DNA of 19,880 nucleotides from an uncultured Anaerolineales bacterium. Its GTDB lineage: Bacteria; Chloroflexota; Anaerolineae; Anaerolineales; Villigracilaceae. The position numbers were made by a program, and so were the translations under genes. Below are positions 4,479-8,949 of this stretch, one piece after another. Numbering within the stretch: the first letter of the stretch is position 1; every line of letters starts with the position of its first letter. The stretch covers positions 1 to 19,880 of the forward strand of contig CALFXA010000127.1 in NCBI GenBank assembly GCA_937928015.1. The letters run 5' to 3'. The notes beneath the pieces were generated by a model, which worked only from the letters and a program-made list of their open reading frames with translations, ran no database searches and had not been told where the DNA came from.

Positions 4479-4507
4479 TTGACGCATGTCTGTCACGGTG
4501 GTATCCT
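4479..4507 (+). promoter_or_regulatory. Promoter giving a leaderless attenuator transcript
   Basis: TTGACG (4479-4484) and TATCCT (4502-4507) are separated by 17 bp. The predicted transcription start is at about 4514, 0-2 nt before the leader ATG at 4516, so the leader peptide would be read from a leaderless mRNA. No Shine-Dalgarno sequence precedes that ATG, which fits. Confidence 0.65.
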
Positions 4508-4515
4508 TGCGCGCA

Positions 4516-4623
4516 ATGTCCAGACAGCTCATCGTTGATGTGACCACCACTACCACTCGTACCAATTCGGTGACGGGGCGTTGGTGGTTGCCTGATGAAC
4601 TGCAACAGGTTCAAGCAAGCTAA
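4516..4623 (+). CDS. Putative attenuator leader peptide (35 aa, Thr-rich)
   Basis: A short frame, ATG 4516 to TAA 4621, begins MSRQLIVDV and then has TTTTTRT at residues 10-16 (five consecutive Thr codons at 4543-4557, one more at 4561-4563). RWWLP lies at residues 22-26. The Thr codons ACCACCA (4543-4549) are complementary to TGGTGGT (4582-4588), while GGGGCGTTGGTG (4575-4586) is complementary to the 5' side of the terminator. This is the arrangement of a ribosome-sensed leader: stalling at Thr codons would free the antiterminator strand. The two Trp codons lie inside the antiterminator strand itself, so stalling there would have the opposite effect. The stop codon is only 8 nt before the terminator stem, closer than in the classic trp leader. 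The peptide is not a known family member; the call rests on RNA logic and position. Confidence 0.7.
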   Translation: MSRQLIVDVTTTTTRTNSVTGRWWLPDELQQVQAS

Positions 4624-4639
4624 ACACACCAAACGCCCC
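4575..4639 (+). promoter_or_regulatory. Antiterminator stem of the attenuator
   Basis: GGGGCGTT (4575-4582) can pair with AACGCCCC (4632-4639), and GGTG (4583-4586) with CACC (4627-4630), leaving a single bulged A at 4631. This 12-bp helix uses the same bases as the 5' arm of the terminator, so the two structures exclude each other. The 5' strand also overlaps the strand that pairs with the Thr codons. Confidence 0.7.
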
Positions 4640-4661
4640 GAGAAATCGGGGCGTTATTTTT
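4632..4661 (+). terminator. Intrinsic terminator (attenuator) before the aminotransferase
   Basis: A perfect 9-bp stem, AACGCCCCG (4632-4640) with CGGGGCGTT (4647-4655), has a 6-nt loop and is followed by ATTTTT (4656-4661). It lies upstream of the aminotransferase and 8 nt after the leader stop, on the coding strand of both, so it would stop transcription before the structural gene. Confidence 0.9.
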
Positions 4662-4680: not shown

Positions 4681-5985
4681 ATGTCCGTATCCAACGCCAC
4701 CCCCGTCCTCGCTGTGGATGAAAAGAACCTCATCCCCGTCAGTGACCACCTCAAGCAGATGGCCGATATCCCGCCTTCCCGCATGTTTCTGATCAATAAG
4801 TCGCTCAAGGTGTACCTGGAAAAGAATCCAGGCGCGAAGGTATTCGACGCCTCTCAGGGTGACGGTGGCGCCTCCCTGCCTGGGACGCCCAAGGCCATTC
4901 TCGAACGGGCCGCGCAGTTACAGATCGAGCATGGCACCGCCTACGACATGCCTTTCGGAACGGATGCCTATCGCAAGGCGGTGGTCGAGAAATACTGGAA
5001 GCTGGATGCGGACCTGGGAGTGGGTCCCGCCAATGTGCTGGGCACCTCGGGCGGACGTGATGCGCTGGTCAAGGCCTACCAAGCGATGATGGCGCTCGGC
5101 TATGGCCGTCAGGGCGATCTGATCATGGTCTCGCGCGTGCCGTGGATCTCGTACAACTGGGGGCCGTACAACGTCGGCGCGAACGTGCTGTGGGCGCCTG
5201 GTGACCCCGCTCAAGGTTGGGCCTATTCTGAGGATGCGATCCGCGAGAGTGTGAAGTTCGCCGAGTCGAAGGGACGCAAGATCACGGGGCTGGTCATCAC
5301 CAATCCCGATAACCCCACTGGCCTGACTATCTCGGTCGAGAAGCAGGTTTCGCTGGCCAAGGCAGCTCTCGAAGCGGGCGTGGCCTTCGTGCTCTTCGAC
5401 TGGATGTATCACTACGTCACCGACGAATCGCCCATGGACCTGAACTCTTTCCTCAAGTATTTCACGCCCGAGGAGCGCAAACGCTTGATGTTCCTTGACG
5501 GCCTGACCAAGTCGCTGGGCGCGTCGAACATCCGTAACTGCCACCTCATCGCGGATGAGAGCGTGATTAAGTTCATCGTGGCGCGCGCCTCGCACACCGT
5601 CATGCCCACTTTCTATTCGCTGGCCGTGGCGATGGCCGCCTATGAGATGGGCTACATGGAAGCCGCCAAGACCATCATCGAGCCGACCAACGCCAGCCGT
5701 GTCGCGTTGAAGAAACTGCTGGCCGAGAGCGGATTGCAGCACATCATCGGCAAGGGCTACTATGCCTTCATCAACGTCGGCGAGTTCATCCAGGCCAAGG
5801 GCTGGGCGGACAGCGAACCACTCGGTCAGTATCTGGCCGAGAATCACGGCGTGGCCATCGTGCCAGGCGCGTTCTTCTCGCCCTTCGGTGCGGACTGGGT
5901 GCGCTTCTCGTATGCCACGCCCGTCGAACGCACGGAAGGTGCCTTCCAGCGATTGATGGAAGGATTGAATTCGCTCAAGGGTTAA
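4681..5985 (+). CDS. Aminotransferase class I/II (PLP, fold type I)
   Basis: A 434-residue PLP enzyme of fold type I, full length for the family. Visible active-site elements are TSGGRDAL (122-129, phosphate-binding turn), NPDNPTG (208-214), Asp240 in FDWMYHY (pairs with the pyridine nitrogen) with Tyr243, the likely Schiff-base Lys277 in DGLTKSLG, and Arg408 in WVRFSYA, which would hold the substrate carboxylate. AGGAG at 4668-4672 is eight bases before the ATG. The gene is directly downstream of the Thr-rich leader and terminator, so its expression is probably tied to charging of a tRNA, most likely tRNA-Thr. That suggests a role in amino-acid synthesis, perhaps of the aspartate/threonine family, but the donor and acceptor cannot be named from sequence. 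Confidence 0.92.
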   Translation: MSVSNATPVLAVDEKNLIPVSDHLKQMADIPPSRMFLINKSLKVYLEKNPGAKVFDASQGDGGASLPGTPKAILERAAQLQIEHGTAYDMPFGTDAYRKAVVEKYWKLDADLGVGPANVLGTSGGRDALVKAYQAMMALGYGRQGDLIMVSRVPWISYNWGPYNVGANVLWAPGDPAQGWAYSEDAIRESVKFAESKGRKITGLVITNPDNPTGLTISVEKQVSLAKAALEAGVAFVLFDWMYHYVTDESPMDLNSFLKYFTPEERKRLMFLDGLTKSLGASNIRNCHLIADESVIKFIVARASHTVMPTFYSLAVAMAAYEMGYMEAAKTIIEPTNASRVALKKLLAESGLQHIIGKGYYAFINVGEFIQAKGWADSEPLGQYLAENHGVAIVPGAFFSPFGADWVRFSYATPVERTEGAFQRLMEGLNSLKG

Positions 5986-6076: not shown

Positions 6077-6114
6077 ATAAAGTTTGTTTATTTTTGTTAA
6101 TCTCTGGTGAAACT

Positions 6115-8949
6115 ATGCCCTCTAAAAAATTTGCCGACAAATACCTCCTCGCCGTGGAGCAGGCCATCAAAGAAAAGCCGCAAGGCGGCCTGAACGGCTT
6201 CGAGCAGGAATGGAATCTGCTCGATGAAGACCTGCGCCCGCTGCTGACCGTCGGCGCGGGACCCAGCCAGCAATCCTTCGTCGATTACCTGCGCGCGGAC
6301 TGTGTCCCGCACTGGCAGGCGCAATTCAGCCAGCTCGAAGTCTTCCACTGGATGATCGAATGGGCCACGCGTCCGTATTACAGTCCGCGTGGCGCGATCT
6401 ACGAGGCGCGCCTGATGGAGGCCGCGCTGATCAACTCTCTGCATCGGGCGGGTGTCAACTTTGGCGAGCGACTGCATTATTGGCACGGCAACCTGTTGTT
6501 CCTGACCGACATCGGCCATCACTCCATCCCTGGAAATTGGGCCATCGCCAAGCGGCGCTATCTCGAAAAATGCGTGGACCTGTATGGGGACACGCTGGCG
6601 ACCACGGGCATCCACACTAACATGTCGCTGCCCGACCCGCTCTTCGCCTGGGACTTCATGCACCTGCCGTCCAACGAGCGCGGTGATCACCACCTGGACG
6701 AATTCAAGTCCGAGTTTTACATCACGGCCACGCGCCTGTTACGCGCCTTTGCCTCGCTCTTCATCGCCACCACCGCCTCGACGCCGATGCAGGCCGAGGT
6801 CCGCGGCGGGCGGGCAGTCGTCGCGCTGACCGAGTTCGACTCGATTCGCAACCTGACCTTCCCCAATCCGCCCAGCATCGATCTGCCCGACCTCTATCGT
6901 TCGTACAACGATTACCTGCAAATCTCCTACGACCTCGTGCGGCGCGGCGTGCGTTTTGGCAACAACAACTGGACGCCCGTCCGCGCGCGCTCGTTCGCCG
7001 ATCCCGTCGAGCGCATTATTTCCACCACCAGCGACCAGCTTACTTCGCTCTACGCACGTGGGTTGTTCGCCGTGGGCGAGGCCACTCCGCCCGAGGAGAT
7101 GGCCCTGCAGATCGAGAAGCAGAATCTGATGGCTCGTATTAATCTGCCGATGGGACGTGTGGAGATTCGCACCGACGAGGGTGGTCATAGTCTGGACCTC
7201 GACATTGCCAACCTGACCCTCAAGCATCTCCTGCTCCTGCGCATCTACTCCGACCCGCAGTTTGCACGCTCCTTCCGCTACGACCGCGAGGACATCGCCC
7301 GCGCCCGCGCTAATGAGCATCTGACGGCCCAGCATGGTCTGCGCGCCGAGATCGAGAATCCGCTGACGGGCAAGCCGATCTCCATGCGTGCCTTCCTCAA
7401 GTGGACCCTGAACGAGGTCAAGCCATTGGCCGAAGCGCTCGGCTGGTGGGGCGACCTGACCCCGCTGGTGGAAATGTCCGAAGGCGGACGCAATACCTCC
7501 GAGAAGATCCGCGCCCGTCTGCACATAGAACTGGGCGGCAACGACGAAGTCCCGCTGACCCTGTTGCGCGAATTGTTCTACGAGCGCGAGGTGCAGGTCA
7601 AGGCCGACGTGGAACGTATCGCCGTCGATTATGGCTCGCTTGGCGCGGATGCGTCCAAGATCACTGAGTTTCTGCAGCGCAGCCGTGATGCCGTGCGTCA
7701 GGCGTCCGTGCCGATTTCCTTCCGCACACGGACTCAGGCCGTGGTCGAGGTTTCCTACCCCGACAAGACCAGCGAGATCCTCGACCTGGCCCAGCAATTG
7801 ATCCGCATCCCGTCGGTCACCGCCTGCCCGAACGAACGCCTGGACGAGGTCCATCGCGCGGGGTCACTGGTGGATGACTATCTGCGCGGTGCGGGCCTGG
7901 AAGTCAAATACTTCGACGGCAAGTATCCCGCCGTGTATGCGAAATTTCCCTCGCCCGATAATGGGAAAGGGGCTGGAGAGGGCGAGATCCTTCTGACGGG
8001 CCACTTCGACGTGGTCGAGCCTGAGCCCGACGATGCCCAGTTCATGCCGCGCATTGACGGCGATTACCTGTGGGGTCGCGGCGCCGCGGATATGAAGACG
8101 GTTGTGGCGACTTACATGGTGTGGATGAAGGATCGGATGAAATCGGGCAAACCGTTCCCGAATATTGCCCTGATGCTGGTTGGCAATGAAGAAAACGGTG
8201 AAGCCGAATCGTGGGGGACGCCGCATGTCCTTGCCGAACTGAGTAAGGGCGATCCGTCGGGTCGCCCCTATGCGCCCGCTCTTTTCGTCGCAGGCGAACG
8301 CACGGGCGAGAAGGGCAGCGAACTCTTCGGCGAAATTTGCGTGGAGAATCGCGGCGTGATGCGCTTCGATGTGCTGGCACGCGGCGCGAAGGGTCACAGC
8401 GGTGTGGCAGGGACGGGTGACCTGAGCGAGAAGTTGATCGCGGCCCGCTCGGCGCTGAACGAACTCTTTGCCCAGCATCTCACGCTCAAGTCTGCGGACG
8501 GCTGGCAATCGCAGGCCAAGTTCCCGTTCATCAACGTCGGCACGCCTGGCGTGTATAACGTCACCGCCGCGGAAGGCATCCTGGGTGTGGAAATTCGCCC
8601 CATCCCGCAGGATGACGTCGAAGGCTTGAAGTCGAAGATCGACGCCTATTGCGCCGAGAACGGTCTCGAACTGCGCATGAACGTCATGGAAAACGGCGTG
8701 GCCTGTTCGCCTGATAATCCCGCGCTGGCCGCTTTGCTCGAAGCGGTGAGGCTGGCTTCTGGCTCCGAACCAAGAGTCGGGCGCAAGCTGCCAGGCACGA
8801 GCGCCCGCTTCGCTCCTGGCGGTCAGGCCGTGGTCTGGGGGCAGACGGGCATCGGTCCGCACGCCAGGGATGAGCGGCACTTTATTCCCAGCATCGAACC
8901 ATATTACAAGTCGCTGAGTGAACTGGCAAAATTGTGGACTAGGGATTAG
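6115..8949 (+). CDS. GCS2-type ligase domain fused to M20 metallopeptidase
   Basis: A 944-residue two-domain enzyme. Residues about 10-480 resemble the GCS2/glutamate-cysteine ligase family: the acidic GFEQEWNLLD (28-37), TGIHTNMSLPD (164-174), and VEIRTDEGG (349-357). Residues about 550-944 are a complete M20 (ArgE/DapE/CPG2-like) domain: His630 and Asp632 in GHFDVV, Asp659 in AADMK, the catalytic pair Glu692-Glu693 in NEENGE, His761 in KGHSG at the start of the lid domain, and His916 in HARDE near the end. All metal and catalytic positions look intact. So one polypeptide could form a gamma-glutamyl-type or other amide bond and hydrolyse one. I chose ATG 6115, with GGTGA four bases upstream; 33 codons further upstream stay open but read through the repeat cluster. 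The 3' end overlaps the convergent gene by 11 bp. Substrates are unknown. Confidence 0.85.
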   Translation: MPSKKFADKYLLAVEQAIKEKPQGGLNGFEQEWNLLDEDLRPLLTVGAGPSQQSFVDYLRADCVPHWQAQFSQLEVFHWMIEWATRPYYSPRGAIYEARLMEAALINSLHRAGVNFGERLHYWHGNLLFLTDIGHHSIPGNWAIAKRRYLEKCVDLYGDTLATTGIHTNMSLPDPLFAWDFMHLPSNERGDHHLDEFKSEFYITATRLLRAFASLFIATTASTPMQAEVRGGRAVVALTEFDSIRNLTFPNPPSIDLPDLYRSYNDYLQISYDLVRRGVRFGNNNWTPVRARSFADPVERIISTTSDQLTSLYARGLFAVGEATPPEEMALQIEKQNLMARINLPMGRVEIRTDEGGHSLDLDIANLTLKHLLLLRIYSDPQFARSFRYDREDIARARANEHLTAQHGLRAEIENPLTGKPISMRAFLKWTLNEVKPLAEALGWWGDLTPLVEMSEGGRNTSEKIRARLHIELGGNDEVPLTLLRELFYEREVQVKADVERIAVDYGSLGADASKITEFLQRSRDAVRQASVPISFRTRTQAVVEVSYPDKTSEILDLAQQLIRIPSVTACPNERLDEVHRAGSLVDDYLRGAGLEVKYFDGKYPAVYAKFPSPDNGKGAGEGEILLTGHFDVVEPEPDDAQFMPRIDGDYLWGRGAADMKTVVATYMVWMKDRMKSGKPFPNIALMLVGNEENGEAESWGTPHVLAELSKGDPSGRPYAPALFVAGERTGEKGSELFGEICVENRGVMRFDVLARGAKGHSGVAGTGDLSEKLIAARSALNELFAQHLTLKSADGWQSQAKFPFINVGTPGVYNVTAAEGILGVEIRPIPQDDVEGLKSKIDAYCAENGLELRMNVMENGVACSPDNPALAALLEAVRLASGSEPRVGRKLPGTSARFAPGGQAVVWGQTGIGPHARDERHFIPSIEPYYKSLSELAKLWTRD

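Follow-up and report, generated by a model that had tools for sequence, protein, structure and literature searches.

The aminotransferase locus and its upstream region

The window, the whole 19,880-nt stretch of DNA that was analysed, comes from an uncultured Anaerolineales bacterium and carries an aminotransferase gene preceded by a predicted promoter, a short open reading frame and a predicted intrinsic terminator. The following features were assigned, with the basis of the assignment given in parentheses.

4479-4507, + strand: predicted promoter, TTGACG (4479-4484), 17-nt spacer and TATCCT (4502-4507), with an extended TG before the -10 hexamer
4516-4623, + strand: leader frame of 35 codons plus stop, ATG 4516-4518, TAA 4621-4623, peptide MSRQLIVDVTTTTTRTNSVTGRWWLPDELQQVQAS
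4540-4563, + strand: strand 1, predicted to pair with 4569-4591 as the 1:2 hairpin (folding, swap test)
4543-4575, + strand: putative sensor codons, Thr x5, Arg, Thr, Asn, Ser, Val, Thr (Thr/Asn position in the family)
4575-4586, + strand: strand 2, 5' arm of the predicted antiterminator (covariation, swap test, triple switches)
4627-4639, + strand: strand 3, 3' arm of the predicted antiterminator, overlapping the 5' arm of the terminator (covariation, swap test, triple switches)
4632-4661, + strand: predicted intrinsic terminator, 10-bp stem 4632-4641/4646-4655 with a GAAA-type loop, followed by ATTTTT (scan, covariation)
4681-5985, + strand: class I aminotransferase, presumed aspartate aminotransferase, the putatively controlled gene (PF00155, 80.2 bits)

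The promoter with a 17-bp spacer, the five consecutive Thr codons (4543-4557), the pairing of 4575-4586 with 4627-4639 interrupted by one bulged A, and the terminator stem with its T-run had all been described in the original prediction and were all present. Further Thr codons lie at 4561 and 4573, and an Asn codon at 4564. The frame has the 35 codons claimed for it, but its ATG was found 8 nt after the -10 hexamer and 2 nt past the predicted +1 (4514), not on the +1 itself. Promoter-like sites were detected by consensus scan at about the chance level (2 found in 3 kb vs. 1.1 expected) and terminator-like sites at 7 vs. 2.8 expected; both signals owe their support mainly to conservation. The RNA from 4514 to 4661 folded at -52.1 kcal/mol compared to -38.8 ± 3.9 kcal/mol for 200 dinucleotide shuffles (z = -3.45), none of which was equally stable. 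No Rfam match at the gathering score, T-box (RF00230) included, was obtained in the window, and none was obtained on the leaders of six related loci that were searched (L001, L067, L119, L124, L129 and L130).

Pfam assigned the enzyme to the class I/II aminotransferases, and it did not reach an NCBIfam equivalog cut-off among the 25 families listed. Its closest solved sequences and folds were mainly aspartate aminotransferases, for example 1j32 and 1b5o (model pLDDT 71), and aspartate is its likely product, judging from these resemblances. Asparagine and threonine are both made from aspartate.

Downstream, positions 6106-8949 encode a large protein whose C-terminal part resembles M20 peptidases and whose first 550 or so residues have no Pfam match; in distant clades a relative of this protein sits between the aminotransferase and an aspartokinase. 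The contig opens with GTGACTGGAGTTCAGACGTGTGCTCTTCCGATCT at positions 12-45, which we take to be the Illumina TruSeq adapter, so that open reading frames starting at 12 and 29 would be artefacts.

Recurrence upstream of related aminotransferase genes

Related loci were collected by searching genome contigs for the aminotransferase, and the best 80 of 105 matching stretches, nearly all from Chloroflexi or Anaerolineales metagenome-assembled genomes, were retained. One locus (L040) ends before its upstream region, leaving 79 usable loci, in which the layout of promoter, start codon, frame and CCCC-containing terminator was called by script. The aminotransferase was preceded by the complete layout at 68 of these 79 loci in addition to the window, and counts of 69 below refer to these 68 loci plus the window. 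A TTGAC-type -35 was correctly placed in 67 of the 69. The script detected no -10/ATG pair in nine loci (L031, L053, L059, L062, L066, L069, L077, L078 and L080) and no terminator in L064 and L072, the latter of which carries the leader-like MSNRTRTTTFRPN.

Comparison with homologous upstream regions of Anaerolineae, for covariation of the stems and for the Thr run, was the check proposed with the original prediction, and its outcome bore the prediction out. The contrary case, a hairpin kept where the frame is missing, was looked for and seen only at L031, 1 of the 79 loci, and strand 2 has disappeared there too. The element was apparently lost at two loci: L031 retained the terminator with the leader and strand 2 gone, and L059 retained the promoter alone.

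Translation signals and codon content of the leader frame

Between the ATG and strand 2, the frame-0 codons of the 69 members comprised 24.5% Thr and 16.1% Asn, compared to 4.1% and 3.9% in the aminotransferase itself. A stop codon interrupted this stretch in frame 0 in one member, in frame 1 in 52 and in frame 2 in 58, whereas dinucleotide shuffles contained a frame-0 stop in 41 members on average. The observed 322 Thr and 212 Asn codons compare with 147 and 65 in the shuffles. Substitutions in the sensor zone between close members numbered 136, 153 and 368 at codon positions 1, 2 and 3, counts that carry no p-value because the pairs overlap. The Thr/Asn codons of the family mostly lie 12-41 nt upstream of strand 2. 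Given the size of ribosome footprints, a ribosome stalled at this distance would occupy strand 1 but leave strand 2 exposed.

Every one of the 69 leaders has a Thr codon before strand 2, reduced to a single one in L014, L036, L044 and L063, and 68 have an Asn codon, the exception being L056. Threonine alone might be sensed, with the Asn codons serving only the pairing of strand 1. Threonine is the commoner residue, the window itself has seven Thr codons against one Asn, and the aspartokinase leaders described below are rich in Thr with little Asn. Against this, Asn makes up its 16.1% of the sensor-stretch codons across nearly all members and exceeds Thr in those that are poor in Thr. We consider threonine alone unlikely. 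The Thr sensing originally proposed therefore stands in part, and the sensed signal reads best, from the codons, as Thr plus Asn.

The leader starts 6-11 nt past the -10 hexamer in 66 of the 69 members and 13 nt past it in the other three, so we call the transcript leaderless with respect to the predicted promoter. The shortest leader has 16 residues and the longest 44, and clades do not share a conserved C-terminus. The gap between the leader stop and the terminator stem was 2-16 nt in 53 of the 69 members and 18-36 nt in the other 16 (median 11 nt over all 69), reaching 28-36 nt in several divergent members. A stop very close to the terminator, which had been remarked on as poorly explained by the standard model, is thus usual in the main clade. 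In the window (4588-4620) and its relatives, the C-terminal part of the leader is LSGEQEQVHSS-like and shows a third-position bias, and the stop lies exactly 36 nt past strand 2 in 35 of the 69 members. This part of the leader may have a role of its own.

Covariation and folding of the RNA

Covariation was analysed in an alignment (A1) of 61 of the 69 members, the most divergent eight being left out (L067, L068, L070, L071, L073, L074, L076 and L079). For the terminator, 98.6% of cells were paired and 18 cells were changed on both sides; none of 500 shuffles scored as high on paired fraction, double changes or covariation score, and 31 and 40 did so on two other measures. The eight-pair core of the antiterminator was 91.4% paired with 10 cells changed on both sides, and again no shuffle of 500 scored as high on the same three measures. 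On two measures counting pairs or types, the antiterminator did not rise above the shuffles (468 and 106 of 500 as high), and one of its pairs was broken in 22 of the 61 rows.

The antiterminator and terminator are mutually exclusive and have a strand in common, and strands 2, 3 and 4 change together. One base across these strands reads G/C/G in 41 rows, A/T/A in 8 and T/A/T in 2, with ten partial rows. About four of such triple switches were independent on the gene tree, according to our reading of the parsimony list. In a swap test of the 2:3 pairing, the 69 members paired with their own strand at -16.8 kcal/mol compared to -15.7 kcal/mol with those of others, and the corresponding energies for the 1:2 pairing were -16.4 and -14.5 kcal/mol; 0 of 2000 permutations equalled either difference, a level of significance inflated by relatedness.

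Stalling was simulated by folding the transcript up to strand 3 at equilibrium with a 28-nt mask on a sensor codon. The 2:3 pairing formed in 66 of the 69 masked transcripts and 42 of the unmasked ones, with a clear rise on masking in 35. When strand 4 was included, the terminator was favoured on average even under the mask (mean scores 1.02 vs. 0.55) and in many members despite the stall. Equilibrium folding thus backs the switch only in part, and since the terminator is favoured despite the mask, antitermination would need to work kinetically, 2:3 forming ahead of the synthesis of strand 4.

The 1:2 pairing of the Thr codons with TGGTGGT, the remaining pairing of the original prediction, was supported by the swap test, but the window transcript ending at strand 3 preferred 2:3 at equilibrium with or without a stall. 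The folding models therefore suggest that the 1:2 hairpin cannot be the sole brake. In 67 of the 69 members the leader frame extends across strand 2, so a ribosome moving over strand 2 would be a more general brake. Given that 2:3 is favoured in the window even when no ribosome is stalled and that, with strand 4 present, the terminator is favoured in many members even when one is, blocking of 2:3 by the ribosome, together with kinetics, probably outweighs the 1:2 hairpin.

The three-strand covariation also bears on whether the frame encodes a small protein with its own function, or an arrest peptide, next to a separate terminator. The third-position bias after strand 2 in the main clade (173, 146, 283) does indicate that this part is translated and constrained there. 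A free-standing small protein is nevertheless very unlikely and was rejected, because the length is so variable, the C-terminus differs between clades, 8 of the 69 members read strand 2 in a different frame, and the coordinated change of the three strands is left without explanation.

Sister elements upstream of other genes

A covariance model built from A1 (R1) was run against 46 genomes, the sources of 46 of the 80 loci, and gave matches in 41. Of twenty additional or weaker matches, 15 lay before aspartokinase genes and 4 before aspartyl-tRNA synthetase (AspS) genes, and one (L128) was a chance match with no leader; five rows (four places) of partial matches were left out of this set, one of which (L282) has no leader. 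Seven of the genes downstream of R1 matches were checked against NCBIfam and passed TIGR00657 or TIGR00459.

In 30 of the genomes, searches by gene family found 26 aspartokinases above the cut-off. AspS gave 29 matches above its cut-off, spread over 27 genomes, and 27 of these matches were inspected. A Thr/Met-rich leader was found by script before 20 of the 26 aspartokinases, or 21 if L177 is added by reading, and an Asn/Asp leader before 20 of the 27 AspS genes; the remaining seven include L192 and L201, which the script left unoriented. Examples are MSHPTFGMTMTMTTLRPARRVRLVGQA (L181) and MFKNNHFANNNNNNDNDDRWIVGRSFAG (L194). An internal Met occurs in 19 of the 20 aspartokinase leaders, with none in L177 or in the distant L114 (MNPYLFSVACVYIRTTTTNRRKAGRWRG). 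The aspartokinase leaders contain 19.3% Thr, 8.3% Met and 0.4% Asp, approximate values because L161, L163, L172 and L176 were read from an inner start, and the AspS leaders contain 24.4% Asn, 12.2% Asp and 1.5% Thr. In the swap test, aspartokinase leader frames paired better with their own strand 3 (-18.8 vs. -16.1; 0 of 2000 permutations). The AspS leaders, tested without L213 and L214, in which no terminator was detected, gave no significant difference (-13.7 vs. -13.6; 394 of 2000 permutations), because their strand 3 hardly varies. In two genomes (G001, contig C10; G002, contig C23) a second full-length AspS gene lies within a few kilobases of the first.

Among 298 genomes drawn from the class, R1 matched 19 at E ≤ 0.001, and 9 of these strongly (E ≤ 1.8e-9). 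The element is thus common in the relatives of the window and sparse in the class as drawn. Eight of the nine strong matches were aminotransferase elements, four of them in genomes of the first set, and the ninth (L268) lies before an acetolactate synthase gene. At L268 (1504-1785), two tandem Ile/Leu-rich frames, MFFNLTLGIIISIISLIIIYDKGDFVLSRTKV and MLFNSAIAINIISIIWLIIIDDKEAFVLVKG, precede the gene. A similar Ile/Leu/Val-rich frame before acetolactate synthase was found at a weak match, L270 (E = 1.1e-4), and both downstream genes passed TIGR00118. We regard these as candidate Ile/Leu/Val leaders before ilvB in two genomes, a proposal that concerns their codon content and position and leaves aside leaderless status. 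At L268, a separate terminator-like hairpin accompanies each of the two tandem frames, and both frames stand ahead of a single acetolactate synthase gene. Two further weak matches, L279 and L280, were aspartokinase leaders. Eleven other weak matches were left out of the count: no leader was seen in four (L272, L273, L276 and L282), and the other seven (L269, L271, L274, L275, L277, L278 and L281) were short stretches at the terminator end.

In L067, L068, L071 and L076, an aspartokinase motif occurs 4.2 kb downstream of the aminotransferase start, and the aspartokinase gene was confirmed by TIGR00657 for L067 and L071 (genomes G041 and G044). In each of these four leaders Met stands next to the Thr run, as in MMTNCATTTNMMTTPSLKRWGVRA, compared to any internal Met in 11 of the 65 other aminotransferase leaders; some loci end too early to reveal an aspartokinase, such as L074, whose leader also has Met. 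The four loci are related and therefore represent one or a few events. The codon content of the leader appears to follow the genes controlled. Control of a lone aminotransferase, noted at the outset as an oddity, no longer looks like one: the aminotransferase element belongs to a set that also precedes aspartokinase, AspS and ilvB genes.

A simple -10/ATG scan covering 38 of 44 loci revealed no convincing leader before thrC-family (14 loci), asnB-family (14) or thrS (10) genes, and no branched-chain leader was found in six ilvD-ilvB operon heads, one of them only 1.8 kb long. The regions upstream of trpE in L146, L151 and L152 contain, by eye, a T-box-like GGGTGGCACC stretch that gave no Rfam match at the gathering score. 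At L254 (3422-3646, minus strand), a T-box leader precedes thrS (98.9 bits) in a genome that uses ribosome-type leaders elsewhere.

The breadth of the set also weighs on a further explanation, an RNA switch read by a small molecule, a tRNA in T-box fashion or a protein, with translation incidental. Strong alternative RNA structures are present, many regulatory RNAs work in this way, and the T-box before thrS at L254 places such a mechanism in one genome of the group. Such a switch was rejected as highly improbable, since neither the window nor the six leader loci searched matched Rfam, and it gives no reason for translation signals or for codons that fit the gene across gene classes. Least probable of all is a Trp-sensing attenuator modelled on trp leaders with the tandem TGG TGG at 4582-4587 as sensor. 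The window has both of these codons in frame, and many members of the main clade share the first. Trp sensing was rejected because the second TGG is variable (Trp, Tyr, Cys, Arg and others), strand 2 is read in a different frame in L002, L047 and L054, the leaders of L002 and L054 contain no Trp, and the TGG sits within strand 2, where a stalled ribosome would favour the terminator.

Discussion

The data suggest, with a probability that we put at about 85%, that the aminotransferase gene is controlled by ribosome-mediated transcription attenuation on a leaderless transcript that senses charged tRNA-Thr and tRNA-Asn. Comparison among the loci shows the frame, the content and place of its codons, the covariation of the strands and the spacing from promoter to start. 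RNA polymerase would start near 4514, and a ribosome would load on the 5'-terminal AUG upon its emergence. When Thr or Asn is short, the ribosome would stall within 4543-4575, covering strand 1 while strand 2 (4575-4586) stays accessible and pairs with strand 3 (4627-4639), so that no terminator forms and the aminotransferase is transcribed. When both amino acids are plentiful, the ribosome would run over strand 2 and block 2:3, with 1:2 possible after its release; strand 3 would then pair with strand 4, and transcription would end near 4661. The enzyme probably makes aspartate, the precursor of both amino acids. The classical attenuation model does not explain a stop 2-16 nt before the stem, as in 53 of the 69 members.

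Classical amino-acid leader attenuators are those of the thr, trp, his and ilv operons of Proteobacteria. The element shares with them, and with their actinobacterial counterparts (PMC1262725, in the portion of the text available), a leader peptide rich in codons of the pathway, alternative antiterminator and terminator structures, and a stalled ribosome as the switch. Unlike the classical attenuators, it is predicted to have no 5' UTR before the leader start, its sensor codons themselves form strand 1, its frame crosses strand 2 and often ends about 11 nt from the terminator, the genes are aminotransferase, aspartokinase and AspS, and the host belongs to the Chloroflexota. The polycysteine leaderless short ORFs of mycobacteria (Canestrari et al., 2020, as cited in the available parts of PMC9031893 and PMC13236596) are likewise described there as leaderless short ORFs whose repeated codons report amino-acid supply to what lies downstream; that system, so far as those parts describe it, reads Cys, whereas the element here would read two amino acids and has an intrinsic terminator with a covarying antiterminator. 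The uORFC-8-2 motif before cysS in Rhodobacterales, a ribosome-mediated attenuator with cognate codons according to the accessible part of PMC8632094, resembles the AspS leaders in attenuating an aminoacyl-tRNA synthetase gene through cognate codons; as described there it differs in using Cys codons and in its alphaproteobacterial host, and no homology to the AspS leaders is shown. The T-box (RF00230) also controls a terminator and antiterminator by tRNA charging, but reads the tRNA directly, without translation, and it was not matched in the window or the six leader loci.

Both ribosome-mediated attenuation and attenuators on leaderless transcripts have precedents, as far as the available parts of these sources go (PMC9031893, PMC1262725, PMC8632094 and PMC13236596). 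In the open-licence literature we found no description of attenuation or leader peptides in Chloroflexi/Chloroflexota, nor of leaderless attenuation of AspS, an absence that is weak evidence. To judge from the sequences, the element appears to place aspartate metabolism in Anaerolineae under leaderless, ribosome-mediated attenuation.

Taking the set together, we think it fairly likely that the aspartate node of Anaerolineae is run by translation alone, through leaderless attenuators in which the codons of each leader name the products relying on its gene. Leaders reading two amino acids would act as OR gates that signal whether aspartate, the precursor common to both, is sufficient. The mixes would be Thr and Asn for the aminotransferase, Thr and Met for aspartokinase, Asn and Asp for AspS and, in some lineages, Ile/Leu/Val for ilvB, and they would merge (Thr, Asn and Met) where aminotransferase and aspartokinase share an operon. 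The codon content of a leader may also hint at function, here that the aminotransferase, which reaches no curated family cut-off, makes aspartate. The element raises a question about coupling as well, namely how a ribosome that begins at the 5' end can stop within nucleotides of the strand shared with the terminator and still permit termination. As a natural series of one architecture with varied codons and genes, these elements are well suited to testing the rule that leader codons correspond to the regulated product. If the proposed mechanism is true, the range of leaderless ribosome-mediated attenuation would widen to include the Chloroflexota and three steps in aspartate metabolism.
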